A stretch of 64,000 nt of DNA, taken from assembly GCA_016212105.1 (NCBI GenBank), contig JACRHJ010000032.1, forward strand, positions 1-64,000, read 5' to 3'. The DNA is from Nitrospirota bacterium. GTDB taxonomy: Bacteria; Nitrospirota; JACRHJ01. Below are positions 44,781-63,279 of the stretch, piece after piece (position 1 is the stretch's first letter; the number at the start of each line of letters is the position of its first letter). The position numbers were made by a program, and so were the translations under genes. Below the pieces are notes generated by a model. That model was not told where the DNA came from. It ran no database searches and was given only the letters and a program-made list of their open reading frames with translations.

Positions 44781-44796
44781 TGGCACCCTTATTGCA
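44781..44796 (+). promoter_or_regulatory. Sigma-54 promoter of lpxC
   Basis: TGGCAC, 5 bases, TTGCA: the full -24/-12 consensus with correct spacing, about 90 bases before the lpxC start. Confidence 0.75.
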
Positions 44797-50761: not shown

Positions 50762-52975
50762 ATGAATGCGTCCAACAGGCCGTCCATCCATAATATCGCC
50801 TATGTCGCGGTATTCCTCCTCATCATCTCGGTCATCGTATACCTGAACCTCGTCTTCCAGCAGAACCTGAAAAACGACATCGCGCACCAGTTCTCGGACC
50901 AGCAGCTCCTCCTCGCCCGAGGCGCATCGCTCAGCATAGAAAAGCACATCGACAACTACGTAAAACACCTGGTCACGCTCGCGCAGCTCCCGTCAATACG
51001 CGACATGGAGGAGTCCCGCGCGCGTGAGCAGATACTGAAGACGATCATAGACGAGATACCGCGCGAGGAGGAGACCATCGTCAACTTCCAGCTCATAGAC
51101 AAGCGCGGCATTATCGTCATCGACACGTCCACGCACAGCTCCGCCGGCATGGACATCTCGGACCGCGAGTACTTCGCCAAGACACGCCAGCTCGTCAAGG
51201 GCGAGGTCAACATCACGAACATGCTCCGGATGAAGGAGCTGAGCCCGTCTAAGCGGTACATCGTCATATCCACGCCTCTGTACAAGAACACAGCCGGGGG
51301 GCCGGTTGCATTCAACGGCGCGGCCCTCTTCGCCGTCAGCGTGGACGACATCGCGGGCGAGTACGTCTCGCAGATACGGATCGGGAAGCGCGGCTACGCA
51401 TGGGTCATGGACAGCCACGGCACGCTGGTGTACCACCCGACCAACCCGGAGATGATAGGCAGGAACCTCCTTGACGCGGACGAGTCCTGCTACCAGTGTC
51501 ACAGGTCGTTCGACGCGGAGAGGAAGATACTCGCGGGCGTGGGCATCGACTACGGCCTGTACACCGCGCCCATGGGCGAGGACAAGCTAATATCGTTCTC
51601 CCGCGCGCGCGTCGGCTCGGAGTCCTGGATCGTATGCGTCACCGCCCCGTTCACGGAGGTCACGTCTCTCATCGCGAAGTCGATGAAGCTGTACTCGTGG
51701 CTCATCTCCATAATCTTCTTCACCGTCATCGGCACGTCCGTGTTCTTCATCGTCCTGATAAAGAAAAAGACCGCGGCCGACGAGCGCGCGAAGTACGCGT
51801 CCGAGCTGGAGGTCAGGATAAAGGAGCGCACCAGCGAGCTTTCCCGCGAGAAGGAGAAGCTGCACGCGATCCTGTCCGGGTTCGGCGCGGCGGTCTCGCT
51901 CATAGACCGGAACTACAAGGTGCTCTGGGCGAACGAGGTCGTGGCCCAGAACGTGAAGTACCCGGTAGGGAAGATGTGTTACGCAGCCTACAGGAACAGG
52001 ACGAGCCCGTGCCAGGGCTGCCCGCTGCCCGCCGCGCTGGCGAGCGGCCGCATCGAGACCGCAGAGATGGCATGCCGCAGGCCCGGCGTCAGGCCCGGGG
52101 CTGCCCGAGACCCACTGGACGACTACATCACGGGCGACCTGCTCGCGATGCTTGCGCACGACGGCGCGGGCTACTTCCAGTTCGTCATCGCGCCCATCAA
52201 AGACAAGGACGGAAACGTCACCCAGGTGGTCGAGCTTATACAGGACGTGACCGGGATAAAGAGGCTGGAGCAGTCGATGATGCACTCCGAGAAGCTTGCC
52301 GCGCTCGGGCGCATATCGGCCGGCATAGCGCACGAGATAGGAAACCCGCTCACGTCCATATACTCGTTCATACAGATACTCCAGGAGAACCGGTACGACA
52401 GCTTCACGAACAACACGCTCGACACCATATCGTTCCACATCAACCGCATTAAGGAGATAGTCCAGCAGATGTCCGGGTTCTCCCGCAGCTACACGGTGGA
52501 GAAAGGGCCGGTGGACATGAACGACTCCGTCCGGGCCGCGCTCGACCTGCTCGGCCACGAGAAGGGTATGAAGGGCTGCCAGCTCTTCACGAGCTACTTC
52601 CCGGAGATGCTCATCGTGACGGCGGACGAGAAGTGGCTGGTCTCGGTCTTCGTCAACCTGATAATAAACGCGCTCGACGCGATGCCGGGGCCGGGGCGGC
52701 TCACGGTCAGGACCTGCGTCGAGGAGGTGCGCGAGGGCTGCCGGAGGGCGGTGGCCGAGGTCTCGGACACCGGCGTCGGCATACCGCACGAGGACATAGA
52801 GAAGATATTCGACCCGTTCTACACGACGAAGCAGTCAGGCAAGGGGACCGGCCTGGGCCTCGCTGTCACGTATTCCATAATCAAGGACCTGGGCGGCGAC
52901 ATATCCGTCGTGAGCCAGCCGGGCGAGGGTACGACTTTCACGATCAAGCTGCCGATGGAGGAGTGTTTTGGCTGA
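50762..52975 (+). CDS. Sensor histidine kinase with haem-binding (CxxCH) periplasmic Cache domain
   Basis: A 737-residue membrane kinase. A membrane helix (about 12-33), a periplasmic double-Cache-type sensor (about 40-300) and a second helix (about 311-333) lead to a coiled coil (about 340-370), a PAS domain (about 366-500), HisKA with the phosphorylated His524 (SAGIAHEIGNPLTS) and HATPase (NLIINALDAMPG, VSDTGVGIP, GKGTGLGLAV). The periplasmic domain contains CYQCH at 243-247, a c-type haem attachment motif. The PAS domain carries CYAAYRNRTSPCQGC, a possible metal or disulfide site. It likely senses periplasmic redox state or a haem ligand (inference). The response-regulator start overlaps its 3' end by 8 bases. 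Confidence 0.9.
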   Translation: MNASNRPSIHNIAYVAVFLLIISVIVYLNLVFQQNLKNDIAHQFSDQQLLLARGASLSIEKHIDNYVKHLVTLAQLPSIRDMEESRAREQILKTIIDEIPREEETIVNFQLIDKRGIIVIDTSTHSSAGMDISDREYFAKTRQLVKGEVNITNMLRMKELSPSKRYIVISTPLYKNTAGGPVAFNGAALFAVSVDDIAGEYVSQIRIGKRGYAWVMDSHGTLVYHPTNPEMIGRNLLDADESCYQCHRSFDAERKILAGVGIDYGLYTAPMGEDKLISFSRARVGSESWIVCVTAPFTEVTSLIAKSMKLYSWLISIIFFTVIGTSVFFIVLIKKKTAADERAKYASELEVRIKERTSELSREKEKLHAILSGFGAAVSLIDRNYKVLWANEVVAQNVKYPVGKMCYAAYRNRTSPCQGCPLPAALASGRIETAEMACRRPGVRPGAARDPLDDYITGDLLAMLAHDGAGYFQFVIAPIKDKDGNVTQVVELIQDVTGIKRLEQSMMHSEKLAALGRISAGIAHEIGNPLTSIYSFIQILQENRYDSFTNNTLDTISFHINRIKEIVQQMSGFSRSYTVEKGPVDMNDSVRAALDLLGHEKGMKGCQLFTSYFPEMLIVTADEKWLVSVFVNLIINALDAMPGPGRLTVRTCVEEVREGCRRAVAEVSDTGVGIPHEDIEKIFDPFYTTKQSGKGTGLGLAVTYSIIKDLGGDISVVSQPGEGTTFTIKLPMEECFG

Positions 52976-54317
52976 GCGGATACTTGTGGTGGACGACGAG
53001 AAGTCGATATGCGACGCGCTCGCGCACGTGCTGAAGAAAGCGGGCTACGCGGTAACCACGGCGTTTTCTGGTGTCGAAGGCATAAAACTCATCGAGAGCA
53101 TGGGGTTCGACCTGGTCATCTCCGACATCAAGATGGAGGGGGTAAGCGGCCTCGACGTCCTCAGACGGTCGCTGGAGGTCTCGCCCGACATGCCGGTCAT
53201 CATGATAACCGCGTTCGGCTCGATTGACTCGGCGGTCGAGGCGGTCCGGCTCGGCGCCGCCGACTACATCACCAAGCCCTTTGTCAACGAGGACCTCCGG
53301 ATGCGCGTGGCGAAGACACTCGAGACGCGAAGGCTCGCCGCCGAGAACCGCGAGCTGAAGGCGCAGCTCTCGGACAAGTACGACTTCTCACGCGTGATAG
53401 GCCGCTCGGACGCGATGAAGAAGGTCTTCGTCCTCCTCGAGAAGGCGATACCCGCAAGCAGCAACATCCTGATTACAGGCGAGACAGGGACCGGCAAGGG
53501 CCTGGTCGCCAAGACAATACACTACAACAGCCCGAGGAAGGACCGGCCGTTCGTAGCGGTAAACTGCGGCGCGATACCGGAGCACCTCCTCGAAAGCCAG
53601 CTCTTCGGCCACAAGAGGGGCGCGTTCACCTCCGCCGACCGGGACGCGAAGGGCGTCGTCGAGGGGGCGGAGGGCGGGACGCTCTTCCTCGACGAGATAG
53701 GCGAGATGCCGCTCGGCCTCCAGGTCAAGATTCTCAAGCTAATCCAGGACCGGGAGTACCTGCCTGTGGGCGGGACCGCGCCCGTTTCTCTCGACGCGCG
53801 CATCATCGCCGCGACAAACCAGGACCTGGAGAAACTCATCTCCGAGGGCCGGTTCCGCCAGGACCTTTACTACCGCCTGAACGTGCTCGAGATAGAGATG
53901 CCGCCGCTCCGCGCGCGCGGCGACGACTCGCTCTTCCTCGCGCGCGAGTTCGTGAAGGAGTTCGGTAAGGCGGCGGGCGGCAAGGTTACGGGCATGGACA
54001 AGTCCGTCGAGCGGGTCATCGTCAACTACCCGTGGCCGGGCAACATCAGGGAACTCCGGAACGTCGTCGAGCGCGCCCTCGTCCTGTGCGACGGATGCAC
54101 CATAACGTCCGAGCACCTGCCGGAGCGGTTCTCCCAGGCCGGGCCCGGCGGCCGCATCAACCCGCACCTCAAGGAGGCGCACGAGGAGTTCGAGTCCAGG
54201 TACATCCAGCGCATCTGCGAGGAGAACGCCGGTGACAAGGAGCTTACCGCGAAGATTCTCGGGATAGACCTTGCGACGCTGTACAGGAAGATAAAGAAGT
54301 ACGATATAGGGTGCTGA
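52968..54317 (+). CDS. Sigma-54-dependent response regulator (NtrC family)
   Basis: A 449-residue three-domain regulator. The receiver has Asp10/Asp11, the phosphoacceptor Asp53 and Lys103. The AAA+ domain has Walker A GETGTGKG (171-178) and Walker B GGTLFLDE (236-243). The sigma-54-contact loop reads GAFTSA (218-223), not the usual GAFTGA. A Fis-type helix-turn-helix ends it (LTAKILGIDLATLYRKIKKY). TTG 52968 starts inside the kinase gene, so the pair is coupled. Consensus sigma-54 promoters at 44781 and 63008 in this window are candidate targets (inference). Confidence 0.94.
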   Translation: MAERILVVDDEKSICDALAHVLKKAGYAVTTAFSGVEGIKLIESMGFDLVISDIKMEGVSGLDVLRRSLEVSPDMPVIMITAFGSIDSAVEAVRLGAADYITKPFVNEDLRMRVAKTLETRRLAAENRELKAQLSDKYDFSRVIGRSDAMKKVFVLLEKAIPASSNILITGETGTGKGLVAKTIHYNSPRKDRPFVAVNCGAIPEHLLESQLFGHKRGAFTSADRDAKGVVEGAEGGTLFLDEIGEMPLGLQVKILKLIQDREYLPVGGTAPVSLDARIIAATNQDLEKLISEGRFRQDLYYRLNVLEIEMPPLRARGDDSLFLAREFVKEFGKAAGGKVTGMDKSVERVIVNYPWPGNIRELRNVVERALVLCDGCTITSEHLPERFSQAGPGGRINPHLKEAHEEFESRYIQRICEENAGDKELTAKILGIDLATLYRKIKKYDIGC

Positions 54318-55834: not shown

Positions 55835-56026
55835 ACTCCGCATATGTGCAGGGGTCCAGCACGCCGTTCGGGATGCCCGCCCTGGTTGTCATTGCGAGGA
55901 GTCACACGCTACGCGGGACGACGCGGCAATCCCAGCCTTTAAGAACTGAGATTGCCACGCTCCGCTCGCAATGACGGGCAAAAGACTGGAAGGGCAGACA
56001 CATGGGCCTGCCCCTACATAAAAAAC
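55835..56026. repeat. Inverted TTGCGAGGAG repeats after the cNMP-rhodanese gene
   Basis: GTCATTGCGAGGAGTC...CGCGGCAATCCC (about 55888-55933) is followed by an inverted GAGATTGCCACGC...CGCAATGACGGGC (about 55948-55980). Related fragments lie near 7320 and 21614. Confidence 0.6.
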
Positions 56027-56056
56027 AAGAGGGGCGGCCGACCGGCCGCCCCTCTT
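56027..56056 (-). terminator. Intrinsic terminator of the respiratory operon
   Basis: A perfect 14-bp stem (AAGAGGGGCGGCCG and complement) around AC. On the minus strand it is followed by TGTTTTTT, 32 bases after the 12-haem cytochrome stop. The gyrA terminator has a similar core. Confidence 0.8.
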
Positions 56057-56087
56057 GCATTTGTTCGCTAGTCCCTAGCCCCTGCCC

Positions 56088-57221
56088 TTATCCCTGCACG
56101 TGGCACGAGTCGCAGGCGTCCGCCGCGAAGGCCTTCTTCCCGTTGTGGCAGCTTCCGCAGTATTTTCCGTTATTGATCTTGTCCATCGTCATCTTGCCCG
56201 CCGTCTTCTTGAAACCGAACAACGCGGTATGGCAGTCCTGGCATTTCATGCCCATGCCCATGTGGTTGTCGTGGGAGAACCTCACAGGCCCGAAGCCCTC
56301 AACGTTGTAGGCCACGGTGCCGCCGCCCTTCGCGCCGCCCATGTGGCAGCGGCCGCAGTCCGACGCCGGGAACGCGCCCTTGCCGTTGTGGCATGTGCCG
56401 CAGCCCTTGCCGGAGAACATCGCGGCCATAGTCATCTTCCCGCTGGAGCGCGTCATCTTGAAGGCCTTGTCGTGGCAGGAGTCGCAGGTGAGCCCCTTGG
56501 ACATGTGCTTCTTGTGGTCGAAGGAGACGTCGCCCGCGGACGCCACCGCATAGGTTATCCTGCCGCCGCCCACCTTGCCGCTCATCGATACGCCTGTCGG
56601 CATCCCGTTCGGGTGGCACATGCCGCACGAGGTCGTCTTCTCGTCGTGGCAGGTGTAGCAGGTGTCCATCGTCGGGCGGTAGGTCGCAAATCCGGCCGGC
56701 CGCCTCTCGTGGAATATGTTGTAGTGGCAGTAGGTGCACTTTATGCCCAGCTCGCCGATATGCTTCTGGTGCGGCATCCGCACCCGCTCGTTCGCGGGCC
56801 TCGCGCTGCTCGCCGCCTCCACGCCGACTTTTTTGTCGAGGTCGTCCTTGTGGCAGCCGAGGCAGCGCTCGGAGACGAGGTCCTCCTTGGCCGAGAACCG
56901 GAAGTGGAACGCCGCCGCCATCACCCCCGGCTCCGAGACGTCGTGGCAGGTCGCGCAGTTGATGTCCGGGTGCAGCGCGGACTTCTGCCAGAAGTTCTGG
57001 TCGCGCTGGTTGACGTGGCAGTTCAGGCAGTAGAGCTTCTGGGTGCCGACCAGGTGCACGAAGCCCAGAGAGAGTACCACGCCCGGCAGCGCCAGCACCG
57101 CGAGGACGAGAAGCAGCGTCGTCTTCTTTATCCCGGACAGCTTCTTGATGAGCGGCCTGACATCCGGCGACGGCGCCTTCATGATCAGGTCAATCAGCCT
57201 GTTGTTCTTATCGTTGCCCAT
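56088..57221 (-). CDS. Membrane-anchored 12-haem cytochrome with two triheme repeats
   Basis: A 377-residue protein with one N-terminal membrane helix (about 33-56), then a NapC/NrfH-like or related region with six CxxCH motifs (CLNCH, CATCH, CLGCH, CTYCH, CYTCH, CGMCH). Two tandem 62-residue triheme units follow: 232-293 (FDHKKHM, CDSCH, CGTCHNGKGAF, CGRCH) and 312-374 (FSHDNHM, CQDCH, CGSCHNGKKAF, CDSCH). The triheme unit matches the pattern I know as the nanowire-type three-haem repeat. It probably carries electrons between the quinone pool or the molybdoenzyme and periplasmic acceptors. Last gene of the minus-strand operon. Confidence 0.9.
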   Translation of the reverse strand: MGNDKNNRLIDLIMKAPSPDVRPLIKKLSGIKKTTLLLVLAVLALPGVVLSLGFVHLVGTQKLYCLNCHVNQRDQNFWQKSALHPDINCATCHDVSEPGVMAAAFHFRFSAKEDLVSERCLGCHKDDLDKKVGVEAASSARPANERVRMPHQKHIGELGIKCTYCHYNIFHERRPAGFATYRPTMDTCYTCHDEKTTSCGMCHPNGMPTGVSMSGKVGGGRITYAVASAGDVSFDHKKHMSKGLTCDSCHDKAFKMTRSSGKMTMAAMFSGKGCGTCHNGKGAFPASDCGRCHMGGAKGGGTVAYNVEGFGPVRFSHDNHMGMGMKCQDCHTALFGFKKTAGKMTMDKINNGKYCGSCHNGKKAFAADACDSCHVQG

Positions 57222-57256: not shown

Positions 57257-57298
57257 AAAAGTTCTTGGGCCGCCTTCTTACAAGAAGGCGGGACTTTT
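57257..57298 (+). repeat. GGGAC hairpin, copy 13 (3' of the molybdoenzyme gene)
   Basis: Stem CCGCCTTCTT / AAGAAGGCGG, loop AC. GGGAC faces the minus-strand stop at 57309, about 14 bases away. Confidence 0.8.
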
Positions 57299-57308
57299 CT
57301 TCAGTCTT

Positions 57309-59507
57309 TTAAGCTTTTGCGAGTGTTACCTTTGTCAGCATCCAGCCCTGCCCGCCGGACTCCTTGTCCACGGCGAACGGTATTATCCGGTTCGGGTTTA
57401 CGCCGAGGCCTTCGCCCTCCTGGTGCCACCAGACGCAGTCGGTGAAGGGGTCCTGGCTTTCAAACCGCTCGGCCTTCTCTATCTTGCCGTAGCCCGCGTG
57501 GCCGGAGCCCGCCGCGAGCGCGACCGTCCTCGGATGCACGCCCGGCGAGAGCATCACCTCGACCTCTATCTTCCCGGCCGAGGTCGTGAGGTGCACCTTG
57601 TCGCGCGTCCCCAGTCCGAGCGCCCGGCCGACGGCCGCGTTGATGAACACCCGGCTCCCGTGGTTTATCTCCTTCAGGTAGAGGTTGTTCTCCGTCGAGC
57701 CCTCGTTGTAGCCTGTCGGGTCGTACTTGACCAGGACGAACTCGTCGTCCCGGAAGTTCTTGTACTGCTCCGGCTGCTCGTATGACGGGAGCGCCGGCCC
57801 GTCCTTCCAGGCGATGTCTATCTTGCCGGACGGCGTCGCGTACCCGGACAGGCCCGCCCCGCCCATTATCCCGTGGCTGCCGTGGCTTGACGTGTAGTAG
57901 AAACCGGTCGCGGCGAGGTTGTCGATGCCCGCGCCCAGCCTCGACGCCGCCTGCGCGGCGTAGTCCTCCGAGTCCGAGTACCCGAGCGGCCTGCCCGCGG
58001 CGGACGCGATGCCCGCGAGGATTTCCACGAAGGGCTTCGTCCCGCCGACTGGTATGACCACCGGCTGGCCGTAGTTGACGACAGGCTCGCCGTCCGGGCC
58101 CGGCACGACGTCCACCGAGTACTCCTCGAGGTACGTCGTCACGGGAAGCACCAGGTCCGCGTACAGGCCGGTGTCCGATATGTTTGTGTCCATGCAGACG
58201 ATGAACGGCAGCGCCGTCTCGTCGGCGAGGAGCTTCGCTATCTCGCCCGCCTCCGGCGAGCCGTAGGCCGGGTCCGCGCCGTGTATGATGTACGCGCCGA
58301 CCCTGCGGCTTCCGTCCTTGATGGACTTGTAGAAGGCCTCCGGGGCAACCCTCTCCGCGCCCTTGACCGGCCCTTCAGCCTTGAGGTATTTCGGCATCAG
58401 GTTGCAGCCCCGCCTGTTCAGCTTGCCGGTTATGACGGACAAAAGCCGTACCGCGCGCTCGTTGGACGTCCCGTTCGGGTGCTTGCTTACGCCGCCGCCG
58501 GTCAGGACGACGCCTTTGTCCACGCGGGCGAACTCGGCCGCGAGCCGCCTGATGTCGTCTGCCTTGACTCCGCTTATCCGCTCCGCGAGCGACGGCGTGA
58601 ACGAGGCCAGGTGTTCCTTCAGCGCCGACGGGGTGGTGTTCGTCCAGCGCGCGATGAAGGATCCGTCGTACAGCCCCTCGTGCATTATCACGTTCGCCAT
58701 GGCGAGCGCCACGACAGTGTCCGTGCCCGGAAGGAGCGGCATCCACTCGTCGCTCCGGCCCGCCGTCGGCGACAGCCTCGGGTCGAACGTCACAAGCTTC
58801 ACCGTGCTGTCCTTCGACCGGGCGGAGACTATGTCCGCGACCGCCCTGACGCCGGACGACCCGCATGAGAACGGGTCCGCGCCGAAGTTGAGTATGTAAC
58901 CGGTGTTCGCAAGGTCCGGTACGTCCGTGGTACAGCCGAACGTGCCGGTGAGCGCCGCCTCGCGGCTCGGCGAGACGCTGCAACCGTGCGAGACGAGCAG
59001 CCCGCCGCCAAGCCTGGACAGGAACTCCTCGCTTGCGCCTGAGGACGGCCCGCCCGCGGTCTCGACCACGAGCTTCCGGCCCGTGGAGGATTTCAGGTGT
59101 TTTGCTATCTCGGACGCGGCGTCTTCCCACGATATTTCCTGCCAGCGGCCCTCGCCGCGTTTGCCCGTCCTCCTCATCGGCTTCGTCAGGCGTTCCGGGT
59201 CGCACTGCGCGTACAGCCCGGCCTGGCCGATAAGGCAGAGCCTGCCCTGGTTCACCGGGTGCGCCGGGTTGCCGTTCAACTTCATAAGGACGCCGTCCTG
59301 GACGTACGCCACTATCCCGCAGCCCGCCCCGCAGCCGCCGCAGGACGTCGGGATGCCCTTTACGCGCTTGCCGGTGTTGCGGTTCACGTAGTATCCGCCC
59401 TGGTCGGCCGAGGATGCGAACAGCTCTCCGAAGAGGCTGTTGGCCGCCAAGACGGAGGCCCCTGCCGCCGTGTATTTTAGGAAGTCCCTCCTGAGTATCG
59501 TCTTCAT
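57309..59507 (-). CDS. Tat-exported molybdopterin oxidoreductase (PsrA/PhsA-like)
   Basis: A 732-residue catalytic subunit of the DMSO-reductase superfamily. A Tat signal (LRRDFLKYTAAGASVLAA) puts it in the periplasm. The N-terminal [4Fe-4S] ligands are Cys56, Cys59, Cys63 and Cys91. HGCSVSPSREAA offers Cys176 as likely Mo/W ligand, as in polysulfide/thiosulfate-type enzymes. The C-terminal molybdopterin dinucleotide-binding region (INHGSRVFINAAVGRALGLG) is complete. With the NrfD and ferredoxin genes next to it, it forms a CISM (PsrABC-like) complex. The substrate cannot be read from sequence: polysulfide, thiosulfate, tetrathionate or another. CGGAGG precedes its ATG. Confidence 0.92.
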   Translation of the reverse strand: MKTILRRDFLKYTAAGASVLAANSLFGELFASSADQGGYYVNRNTGKRVKGIPTSCGGCGAGCGIVAYVQDGVLMKLNGNPAHPVNQGRLCLIGQAGLYAQCDPERLTKPMRRTGKRGEGRWQEISWEDAASEIAKHLKSSTGRKLVVETAGGPSSGASEEFLSRLGGGLLVSHGCSVSPSREAALTGTFGCTTDVPDLANTGYILNFGADPFSCGSSGVRAVADIVSARSKDSTVKLVTFDPRLSPTAGRSDEWMPLLPGTDTVVALAMANVIMHEGLYDGSFIARWTNTTPSALKEHLASFTPSLAERISGVKADDIRRLAAEFARVDKGVVLTGGGVSKHPNGTSNERAVRLLSVITGKLNRRGCNLMPKYLKAEGPVKGAERVAPEAFYKSIKDGSRRVGAYIIHGADPAYGSPEAGEIAKLLADETALPFIVCMDTNISDTGLYADLVLPVTTYLEEYSVDVVPGPDGEPVVNYGQPVVIPVGGTKPFVEILAGIASAAGRPLGYSDSEDYAAQAASRLGAGIDNLAATGFYYTSSHGSHGIMGGAGLSGYATPSGKIDIAWKDGPALPSYEQPEQYKNFRDDEFVLVKYDPTGYNEGSTENNLYLKEINHGSRVFINAAVGRALGLGTRDKVHLTTSAGKIEVEVMLSPGVHPRTVALAAGSGHAGYGKIEKAERFESQDPFTDCVWWHQEGEGLGVNPNRIIPFAVDKESGGQGWMLTKVTLAKA

Positions 59508-59520
59508 CCAAGCACCTCCG

Positions 59521-60444
59521 CTACATGATAGGTATGAACTGTCCGCCGACCGTCACCGTGTACCGCATTATGTACACGCCGATGAGCGCGAAGACCATGA
59601 GGACGGCCCATACCTTTAGGTTTTTGTTGACGCCCGGCACAGCCATCGCAAGCACCGGCAGGAGGTTCCCGAGACCCAGGTCGACATACGCGTAGAGGCT
59701 GCTCAGGTGGCCGGTCAAAAGCATCTTGGCCGCCTCGACCGCCTCCTCCGACTCGAACCGCATGTTCACCTGCTCCGTGAAGACTATGAACAGGTTCAGT
59801 ATCATGAACACGCCCGCGAGACGCGTAAGGTTTATCAGGAGGCCGTTGTCCGTCTCCTTCTCGTGCTCGTCGGCCCAGGAGTCCTTCCTGTTCTTGGTCC
59901 AGTGCCGGATGATGCCTATGAGCGTCATCAGCGCAATGCCCGAGACCATCGCCGAGGACAGGAAGTATATCGGCATGAGCGACGTGCTCCAGGCCACGCG
60001 GGATATGCCCATCGAAAGGACGAAGCCCGTGTAGGCATGCACGCCAATGGCGAGCGGCAGGCTTATCGCGCCGAATATCTTCGCGTACTTCATGTTGTTC
60101 TTGAAGAGCATTACGATGTAAATCGTGGTGGTTATCGGGTAGGAGCAGAGGAAGACCGAGCCCCACGTAAGCGGCGAGGTCGAGTTGCCCCTCGTCATAA
60201 GGTACCAGAACCTGAGCGGCTGTCCCAGGTCCACGACCAGCAGTATCGGCGCGGTCGAGAAGAGTATGATGACCCCTATCGCGCCTATCTTGGCTATCGG
60301 CTTGTACTCCTTCTTGCCGGTAAGCGTCGCGCCGATAGAGAGCAGAGAGCAGCCGGCGTGCAGGCCGACCATGTAGAAGTACGTCGCTATCGCTATGGTC
60401 AGCGGTATCTCGTGCGGCACGTTGTACAGAACGTTCATGTCCAT
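59521..60444 (-). CDS. NrfD/PsrC-type membrane quinone-interacting subunit
   Basis: A 307-residue polytopic membrane protein with about eight hydrophobic segments. VPHEIPLTIAIATYFYMVGL, HAGCSLLSIG, LLVVDLGQPLRFWYLM and the final KVWAVLMVFALIGVYIMRY are NrfD-type. It should anchor the molybdoenzyme/ferredoxin arm and exchange electrons with (mena)quinone. It starts at ATG 60442-60444 after AGGAGG, in a leader carrying GGGAC hairpin copy 14. The molybdoenzyme gene starts 13 bases after its stop. Confidence 0.93.
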   Translation of the reverse strand: MDMNVLYNVPHEIPLTIAIATYFYMVGLHAGCSLLSIGATLTGKKEYKPIAKIGAIGVIILFSTAPILLVVDLGQPLRFWYLMTRGNSTSPLTWGSVFLCSYPITTTIYIVMLFKNNMKYAKIFGAISLPLAIGVHAYTGFVLSMGISRVAWSTSLMPIYFLSSAMVSGIALMTLIGIIRHWTKNRKDSWADEHEKETDNGLLINLTRLAGVFMILNLFIVFTEQVNMRFESEEAVEAAKMLLTGHLSSLYAYVDLGLGNLLPVLAMAVPGVNKNLKVWAVLMVFALIGVYIMRYTVTVGGQFIPIM

Positions 60445-60578: not shown

Positions 60579-61217
60579 TTAGAATATCTCTTCGAGAACC
60601 TTGTGGTCGTGCTCGATGCTGTACTCGACGTCTATGCCCTTGAGCGGGTCCGCCATGTCCTTGTCCAGCCCGACGTAGAAGACGGACGGCAGGGTGCCCG
60701 AGTCCGGCTTCAGCACCGAGGTCGGCAGCTTTATCAGGAGCTGCGCCACCTCGCTCTCCGGGTCGTTCATGTCGCCAAAGACACGGGCCCCGGCGGGGCA
60801 GGTCTCGACGCAGGCGGGCTTCAGGCCCGCGTCGACCCTGTGGCTGCAGAAGTAGCACTTCTGGGCGTACTTCCTTACAGGGTTCAGGTAACGCACCTGG
60901 TACGGGCAGGCCGCCATGCAGTACTTGCAGCCGGTGCACTTGTGCGGGTCAATCAATACGATGCCGTCGTCACGCTGGTACGACGCCTTCGTGGGACAGA
61001 CCCGGACGCATATAGCCTTCTCGCAGTTGTTGCAGAGGACCGGCAGGGACATGGTCCTGGCGACCGGATAATCGCCCTTCTCCATGACCTTCACCCAGGA
61101 CCTCCAGACCGCGGGCGGGACTTCGTTCTCCGCCTTGCACGCGACAGAGCAGCTGTGGCAGCCGATGCACCTGGTGAGGTCTATGACCATCGCGTATCTC
61201 TTGGCCGTGTTCGACAT
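60579..61217 (-). CDS. Four-cluster [4Fe-4S] ferredoxin subunit (PsrB/DmsB-like)
   Basis: A 212-residue iron-sulfur electron-transfer subunit. It has four Cys groups: CIGCHSCSVAC (17-27), CNNCEKAICVRVCP, CTGCKYCMAACP and CYFCSHRVDAGLKPACVETCP. This is the classic DmsB/PsrB/NrfC layout, linking the molybdoenzyme to the NrfD subunit. It has no signal peptide and is expected to be co-exported with the Tat-signalled partner. Gene order ferredoxin, NrfD, molybdoenzyme, cytochrome is on one strand. A 12-bp-arm hairpin lies before its start. Confidence 0.93.
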   Translation of the reverse strand: MSNTAKRYAMVIDLTRCIGCHSCSVACKAENEVPPAVWRSWVKVMEKGDYPVARTMSLPVLCNNCEKAICVRVCPTKASYQRDDGIVLIDPHKCTGCKYCMAACPYQVRYLNPVRKYAQKCYFCSHRVDAGLKPACVETCPAGARVFGDMNDPESEVAQLLIKLPTSVLKPDSGTLPSVFYVGLDKDMADPLKGIDVEYSIEHDHKVLEEIF

Positions 61218-62221: not shown

Positions 62222-62264
62222 AAAAGTCCCGCCTTCTTGTAAGAAGGCGGCCCAAGAACTTTTA
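62222..62264 (-). repeat. GGGAC hairpin, copy 15 (5' of paralogue 3)
   Basis: Stem CCGCCTTCTT / AAGAAGGCGG. GGGAC end about 40 bases before the start at 62184. Confidence 0.8.
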
Positions 62265-62968: not shown

Positions 62969-63007
62969 CGCACCCTCCGTTTTTTGTCCCTCTTGCCCCT
63001 TAATAAG

Positions 63008-63023
63008 AGCAAACGGCGTGCCA
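63008..63023 (-). promoter_or_regulatory. Sigma-54 promoter of the respiratory operon
   Basis: On the minus strand TGGCACGCCGTTTGCT matches the -24/-12 consensus (TGGCACR-N4-TTGCW) at every fixed position, about 40 bases before the first paralogue. Confidence 0.85.
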
Positions 63024-63245
63024 ACAAAAACAGGATTGTTTTGGTGTGCGGATAATTAAATTGCAACTCGTTGATAATTATCGGCAATAAACTGCGAGGC
63101 GGGATTGTCTGGCCAGCCTGGGAAGGCGGGCGGGACGGGGCCGGCCCATGTTTTTTTGCACGGATGCAAATAGGGGCCGTCCTGAATTTGCAGAATTGCG
63201 AGTTATCAGTTATGGTTATGAAGAGGATAAGGGCGGGACGCCCGC
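63024..63245. other. Upstream region of the sigma-54 promoter
   Basis: An AT-rich tract with GTTGATAATTATC (about 63070-63082), a small dyad that could bind a regulator, then a GC-rich unassigned stretch. No gene or known repeat. Confidence 0.35.
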
Positions 63246-63279
63246 AAAAAAAGAAGGGCCGACACACGGGTCGGCCCTT
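63246..63279 (-). terminator. Possible terminator of the upstream cytochrome gene
   Basis: A GCCGAC-type hairpin (AAGGGCCGAC / GTCGGCCCTT, 6-base loop) followed on the minus strand by CTTTTTTT. It lies about 190 bases past the stop of the multiheme gene. Confidence 0.55.

Follow-up and report, generated by a model that had tools for sequence, protein, structure and literature searches.

A sigma-54 promoter with conserved upstream palindromes precedes small membrane protein and electron-transfer genes in a Nitrospirota genome, with a haem-kinase/regulator pair as candidate activator

The nearest functional parallel to the locus analyzed here appears to be BccR-CbcBA of Geobacter sulfurreducens, in which a sigma-54 response regulator is reportedly needed for the expression of a 7-haem cytochrome and a b-type cytochrome. 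The likeness lies in the company that the regulator keeps, as Nitrospirota regulators of the type studied here often stand beside genes for a 7-haem cytochrome and a ~240-aa cytochrome b561-family protein; the small-protein cassette described below is not known from the Geobacter system. By sequence, the NtrC-type AtoSC-atoDAEB system of E. coli is also similar: AtoC is the closest NCBIfam model of our regulator, although the score of 431.6 bits does not reach the equivalog cut-off of 714. The atoDAEB operon has two adjacent palindromic sites with TGCA-containing half-sites at about -184 to -144, upstream of a sigma-54 promoter (PMC3118216), and our locus too has two palindromic TGCA-containing sites upstream of such a promoter. 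The half-sites of AtoC are, however, spaced otherwise (GCTATGCAGAAATTTGCACA), and the atoDAEB operon is catabolic and acetoacetate-responsive.

Three further systems invite comparison. In Desulfovibrio vulgaris, sigma-54 promoters (tGGcacg / tTGCt) and EBP regulons have been defined comparatively, and the regulon of one EBP, DVU3142, is an electron-transport complex; its regulators and targets differ from ours (PMC4641369). The sCache_heme family (DUF3365/PF11845; PMC12889525) resembles our sensor in having an extracytoplasmic CXXCH Cache domain that feeds a histidine kinase, but it is a single-Cache family, whereas our kinase carries dCache_1 with no PF11845 match. Finally, the Qrc, Phs, Psr and Ttr oxidoreductases share with our locus the combination of a molybdopterin subunit, an FeS protein, NrfD and a multihaem cytochrome. 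The molybdoenzyme nevertheless scores 273.7 and 213.2 bits against PhsA and QrcB, under the curated cut-offs of 694 and 440, and the protein compared with TtrB falls under the NCBIfam equivalog cut-off.

Against this background we analyzed a 64-kb stretch of a Nitrospirota contig, hereafter the window. Our reading is that a minus-strand element at 63008-63023 is very probably the sigma-54 promoter of a unit encoding four small membrane proteins (P1-P4), an FeS protein, NrfD, a molybdoenzyme and a cytochrome, that it lies within a control region recurrent in Nitrospirota, and that it would be activated by a haem-kinase/regulator pair. The sigma-54 promoter, the NtrC-type regulator and the IHF-like site are parts of known kinds, and in the open-access papers we found no account of the regulon, the operator or the small-protein family.

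The promoter, TGGCACGCCGTTTGCT, matches TGGCACG-N4-TTGCW with zero mismatches in a pattern search, and its -24/-12 GG and GC lie ten bases apart within TGGCAC-N5-TTGCW. From its last base, 39 nt separate it from the ATG of P1 at 62968, with a GGAGG ribosome-binding site in between, and the spacing predicts a transcription start near 62997. The first-pass annotation had placed a consensus sigma-54 promoter here, about 40 bases before the first paralogue, and both the element and its position are borne out. Across the genome (3.05 Mb in 61 contigs, G000) exact TGGCAC-N5-TTGCW occurs 23 times, compared with none for the same pattern read backwards, and three of the other sites precede genes of the sort classically under sigma-54 control, which Pfam identifies as nifH, an ammonium transporter gene and a type IV pilin gene. 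The genome encodes one rpoN (PF04552, E=2.2e-62) and 14 strong Sigma54_activat domains, nine of which, including that of the window, have an exact site no more than 10 kb away. Only one other exact site falls within the window, TGGCACCCTTATTGCA at 44781-44796 on the plus strand, directly 5' of a gene that we take from its sequence to be lpxC-like; no TTTGCA-N4-TGCAAA palindrome is found near it.

Conservation before homologues of P1 provides a measure of whether this 16-mer might be a functionless chance match. Of 61 genomes sampled, 10 contain such homologues, counting that of the window, and in all 17 Nitrospirota loci collected (L066-L082) TGGCA-N7-TGC(A/T) stands 33-60 nt 5' of the start codon of the first homologue. 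A scan of named genomes, from which the best 80 of 98 stretches were used, partly covers the same contigs; the titles of these 80 are mostly Nitrospirae/Nitrospirota or Thermodesulfovibrio, with one Desulfobulbaceae and one Campylobacterota. In 61 of these 80 loci the 200 bp before the homologue contain the strict form TGGCAY-N6-TGCW. The other 19 break down as follows: two sit at the end of a contig, seven are one base off (L095, L115, L116, L119, L124, L135, L147), one is two bases off (L160), and nine have no site (L087, L137, L141, L142, L143, L146, L149, L152, L161), several of them with coding sequence just upstream. When the 74 of these best 80 loci with at least 160 bp of upstream sequence are considered, the strict site lies within 120 bp of the homologue in 57, compared with 3 among 470 control genes taken from these loci. 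The simple consensus is admittedly common once mismatches are allowed (the window holds seven matches with at most two, fewer than its shuffles), but TGGCACGCCGTTTGCT is exact, its spacing to the ATG and the ribosome-binding site is right, and an equivalent site stands at the equivalent place before distant homologues at a frequency far from that of the control genes. We therefore ruled out a chance match, which would be extraordinarily improbable; on this comparative evidence 63008-63023 is a genuine sigma-54 promoter. As a separate observation, the small-protein genes of L137, L143, L146, L149 and L152 lack a promoter of their own and apparently lie behind upstream coding sequence, and inside operons of this type L179, L180 and L182 contain a gene of ~110-118 aa starting MKF(I/V)VSR or MKFIVNR.

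Upstream of the promoter, an intrinsic-terminator-like hairpin with a T tract (63254-63279, minus strand) closes a multihaem cytochrome gene, and the interval that it bounds is therefore a separate control region. Within it are two candidate enhancers related to TTTGCA-N4-TGCAAA: proximal UAS1, TTTGCACGGATGCAAA (63155-63170), is exact and centred 139 bp upstream of the promoter's TGG, and distal UAS2, TTTGCAGAATTGCGAG (63187-63202), has two mismatches and is centred at 171 bp, 32 bp from UAS1. Given the predicted start, they would be centred near -165 and -197. The genome contains no exact copy other than UAS1. An IHF-like site, TATCAACGAGTTG, containing an exact WATCAANNNNTTR, lies between enhancers and promoter at 63066-63078 on the minus strand; the IHF consensus takes the form WATCARXXXXTTR (quoted in PMC7962754). 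An inverted repeat around 63047-63086 was also considered as an enhancer and rejected, as relatives conserve TTTGCA-N4-TGCAAA and 63066-63078 fits an IHF-like site better.

In relatives the centre of the palindrome lies 49-53 bp upstream of TGG, and a second copy is often found at 69-71 or 79-82 bp. At no more than one mismatch it is found within 100 bp of TGG at 47 of 56 promoters (30 exact) versus none of 1020 random 100-bp stretches, and two copies at no more than two mismatches accompany 43 of the 56. The IHF-like WATCAANNNNTTR, allowing one mismatch, recurs 17-18 bp upstream of TGG at 36 of 55 promoters (6% in shuffles). The window has the same order of UAS2, UAS1, IHF-like site and promoter but is more spread out, its enhancers lying 139 and 171 bp from TGG rather than about 51 and 70 or 81 bp. 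By sequence, UAS1 and UAS2 represent the shared upstream regulator site envisaged in the first-pass annotation, and they are conserved in relatives. Searched as a single exact pattern, enhancer plus promoter turned up 33 times, spread over 19 of the 245 Nitrospirota genomes, never when reversed, and in none of 395 genomes from the phylum of L164, the locus titled Desulfobulbaceae. In a survey of 30 loci, nine of which end at contig ends, the next gene, judged where downstream DNA sufficed, codes for a small protein of the family (gene A or the partner, gene B), with the exceptions of L171, a multihaem cytochrome, and L168, ResB. The window's own genome has one-mismatch enhancer copies elsewhere (C4:81081, C24:57744), with no sigma-54 site near either, so its regulon seems limited to the operon behind 63008-63023.

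The first genes of this operon encode small membrane proteins. P1 (62621-62968, minus strand, like the genes that follow) is a Gly-rich protein of 115 aa, and P2 (62278-62610), P3 (61825-62184) and P4 (61304-61639) are its paralogues, P4 being nearest to the family profile. A hairpin of two long helices is predicted for P4 (mean pLDDT 82, pTM 0.61). We sought an identity for the small proteins through Pfam, NCBIfam and PDB sequence or fold, and nothing exceeded threshold: P1-P4 have no match in Pfam or NCBIfam at E≤0.001, P4 has no fold match in the PDB at E≤0.001, and the lone Pfam score among 15 gene-B members is to a TM7S3/TM198-like family (4.2e-5). In relatives the cassette pairs gene A (A1) with another small-protein gene (A2), and cytochromes may or may not accompany it; the cytochrome-linked form includes a 7-haem cytochrome, the ~240-aa cytochrome b561-family protein and a 6- to 9-haem protein, and stands beside a kinase/regulator pair. 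Judged from these gene contents, the constant output would be Gly-rich two-helix membrane proteins of ~105-115 aa, usually with multihaem cytochromes and sometimes with FeS/NrfD. Some genomes have five or six matches to the family (G034, G052, G072, G075, G151, G197), and the cassette frequently coincides with contig breaks, as though it were an assembly repeat (L172, L177, L178, L190, L192).

Downstream of P4 follow a 4Fe-4S ferredoxin-like subunit (Fer4_11; TtrB/DsrO-like; 60579-61217), an NrfD-type membrane subunit (59521-60444), a PhsA/QrcB-like molybdopterin oxidoreductase (57309-59507) whose N-terminal RRDFLK is presumably a Tat-like motif, and a multihaem cytochrome c7-type protein (56088-57221); a strong terminator-like hairpin at 56025-56058 marks the operon end. 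Whether one promoter serves all of these genes can be weighed from their arrangement. It could instead drive only P1-P4, or P1-P2, with the FeS-NrfD-molybdoenzyme-cytochrome genes having a promoter of their own: the cassette stands alone in many relatives, there are gaps of 93, 185, 86 and 134 nt, and a hairpin between P2 and P3 (62229-62250) could cause a partial transcription stop. That hairpin is, however, weaker than the one at 56025-56058, no strong terminator lies inside the operon, and all genes are on the same strand between the terminators at 63254-63279 and 56025-56058. The linkage of the molybdoenzyme itself lacks conservation, as at E≤1e-80 the enzyme occurs in 9 of 245 genomes, and only the window's genome has it next to a promoter of this type; one other of these genomes, G169, has the small-protein family, on another contig. 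Against a small-protein-only transcript, L276 (G108) has FeS and NrfD genes behind a promoter of this kind and L265 (G177) has NrfD/FeS genes behind an exact UAS, in both cases adjoining the haem-kinase/regulator pair. We regard restriction to the small proteins as unlikely, at something over one chance in five, and favor readthrough along the whole unit, to which a PhsA/Qrc-like molybdoenzyme may have been added in this genome. The hairpin sequence CCGCCTTCTTACAAGAAGGCGG occurs twice, at 62229-62250 and again between the molybdoenzyme and cytochrome genes at 57270-57291, and candidate readings of the pair are a repeat or a processing/attenuation element.

The candidate activator is encoded on the plus strand at 52968-54317 and adjoins the gene of a sensor histidine kinase at 50762-52975, in agreement with the AAA+ activator and cognate kinase noted earlier at 50762-54317. 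It is an NtrC-family response regulator with the domains of an NtrC-type bEBP, namely a receiver (PF00072), a Sigma54_activat AAA+ domain (PF00158) and a Fis-type HTH (PF02954) that contains GIDLATLYRKIKKYDI. The loop that in this class contacts sigma-54 reads GAFTSA in place of GAFTGA, as it does in at least five orthologues (L201, L208, L209, L211, L218); the other 16 of the 22 regulator loci listed have GAFTGA, and two other bEBPs of the same genome have GAFTDA. This departure tells against our reading; the stronger idea that it makes the regulator defective was dropped, as GAFTSA is also found in orthologues from another family in which the module is retained. The genomes of those five orthologues also have the small-protein family, and a search of the open-access literature for the string GAFTSA found no paper.

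Several comparisons tie this regulator to the cassette. Regulators with a D(L/I)xTLYRK recognition helix form one HTH clade of 46 sequences (support 0.999). Across 245 genomes an orthologue is present in 42 of the 47 with the small-protein family (E≤1e-10) and in 12 of the 198 without it, at a regulator cut of best E≤1e-132 that was set after the list had been viewed; the Fisher p of about 1e-30 is inflated by the kinship of the genomes. The discordant genomes are thus five with the family and no orthologue and 12 of the reverse kind, and in six of these 12 (L262, L263, L264, L266, L268, L269) the stretch is cut off by the end of its contig close to the expected position. Regulator and family share a contig within 20 kb in at least 13 of the 42 genomes, and at many loci the haem-kinase/regulator pair is found close to the cassette. 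The small proteins are absent from the members sampled of the family to which the window's genome belongs (G001-G005), whose regulator matches reach only about 1e-118 to 1e-124; this suggests either gain in the window's lineage or loss in those of G001-G005.

A genuine promoter might still be activated by another bEBP. The genome has 14 strong Sigma54_activat matches to choose from, the window's regulator lies 8.7 kb from the promoter and has no enhancer of its own, and at the cut used its orthologue is absent from 5 of 47 genomes with the family. Yet among the 14 bEBP tails of this genome only that of the window's regulator has the DLATLYRK helix, it alone of the 12 bEBPs included in the tree falls inside the orthologous clade, and this clade tracks the cassette over the 245 genomes as its frequent neighbor. 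Activation by a different bEBP is therefore improbable in our estimation. Because promoter and enhancers are conserved, orthologues co-occur and the genes are often adjacent, the regulatory link is well supported by comparison, and the haem-kinase/regulator pair is the best candidate activator. The earlier proposal that this pair switches on the molybdoenzyme operon accordingly stands in part: the pair emerges as the leading candidate from its co-occurrence, neighborhood and distinct clade, whereas linkage to the molybdoenzyme was seen only in this genome.

The kinase places a CXXCH motif (C243, C246, H247) within a dCache_1 domain (Pfam, E=1.9e-24). Adjacent kinases of relatives are 35-41% identical to it, and in all 13 kinases aligned the Cache-domain CXXCH is at the same place, making covalent attachment of haem very likely. 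It shares the Cache-domain CXXCH with sCache_heme proteins, but with no match to PF11845 (Tll0287/DUF3365) at E≤0.001 it lies outside that family by domain content. What the domain would sense is a matter of choosing between signals. Periplasmic redox state had been proposed at the outset; since the single-Cache haem family, whose CXXCH Cache domains are fused to signalling modules, has the properties of a NO sensor (PMC12889525), redox state is one of several options. The invariant CXXCH of the window's kinase and that precedent would be consistent with a sensor of NO or another small haem ligand, and with an operon that responds to NO or nitrogen oxides rather than to redox conditions in general. 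The NO property is not transferable from a single-Cache PF11845 family to a dCache_1 kinase, however, and electron-transfer outputs fit redox sensing too, so we hold a haem-ligand signal to be possible but doubtful.

Taken in sequence, the haem-Cache domain of the kinase at 50762-52975 would receive the signal, and the kinase would phosphorylate the NtrC-type regulator at 52968-54317, oligomers of which may then bind UAS1 and UAS2. Bending of the intervening DNA at the IHF-like site would allow the AAA+ domain of the regulator to open the closed sigma-54 RNA polymerase complex at 63008-63023, and the output would be the small membrane proteins together with an FeS/NrfD/molybdoenzyme/cytochrome complex. 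More broadly, and with somewhat greater reserve, we lean toward a dedicated Nitrospirota-wide sigma-54 regulon. Its fixed cis-architecture would consist of tandem TTTGCA-N4-TGCAAA enhancers at a spacing of 20 or 30 bp, a bend at an IHF-like site and a -24/-12 promoter, and it would be governed by a histidine kinase whose double-Cache domain gained a covalent c-type haem. At its core the regulon would produce Gly-rich two-helix membrane proteins of ~110 aa, a family so far undescribed, which probably serve electron-transfer complexes of the periplasm or membrane as general accessory subunits.

A guessed promoter thereby becomes a testable circuit that recurs in Nitrospirota, one whose sensor, regulator, operator, promoter and outputs are individually specified and open to mutagenesis, and the operator sequence allows members of the regulon to be found in uncultured genomes. 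The circuit also brings forward a double-Cache haem kinase distinct from the single-Cache haem sensors described, and a small membrane-protein family, absent from Pfam and NCBIfam, that is tied to electron-transfer genes. In one relative (L277:7831-13549, G151), the enhancer and sigma-54 site stand before ResB-type cytochrome c biogenesis genes, with a further CXXCH kinase and a further NtrC-type regulator behind them, an arrangement that suggests a regulatory cascade.
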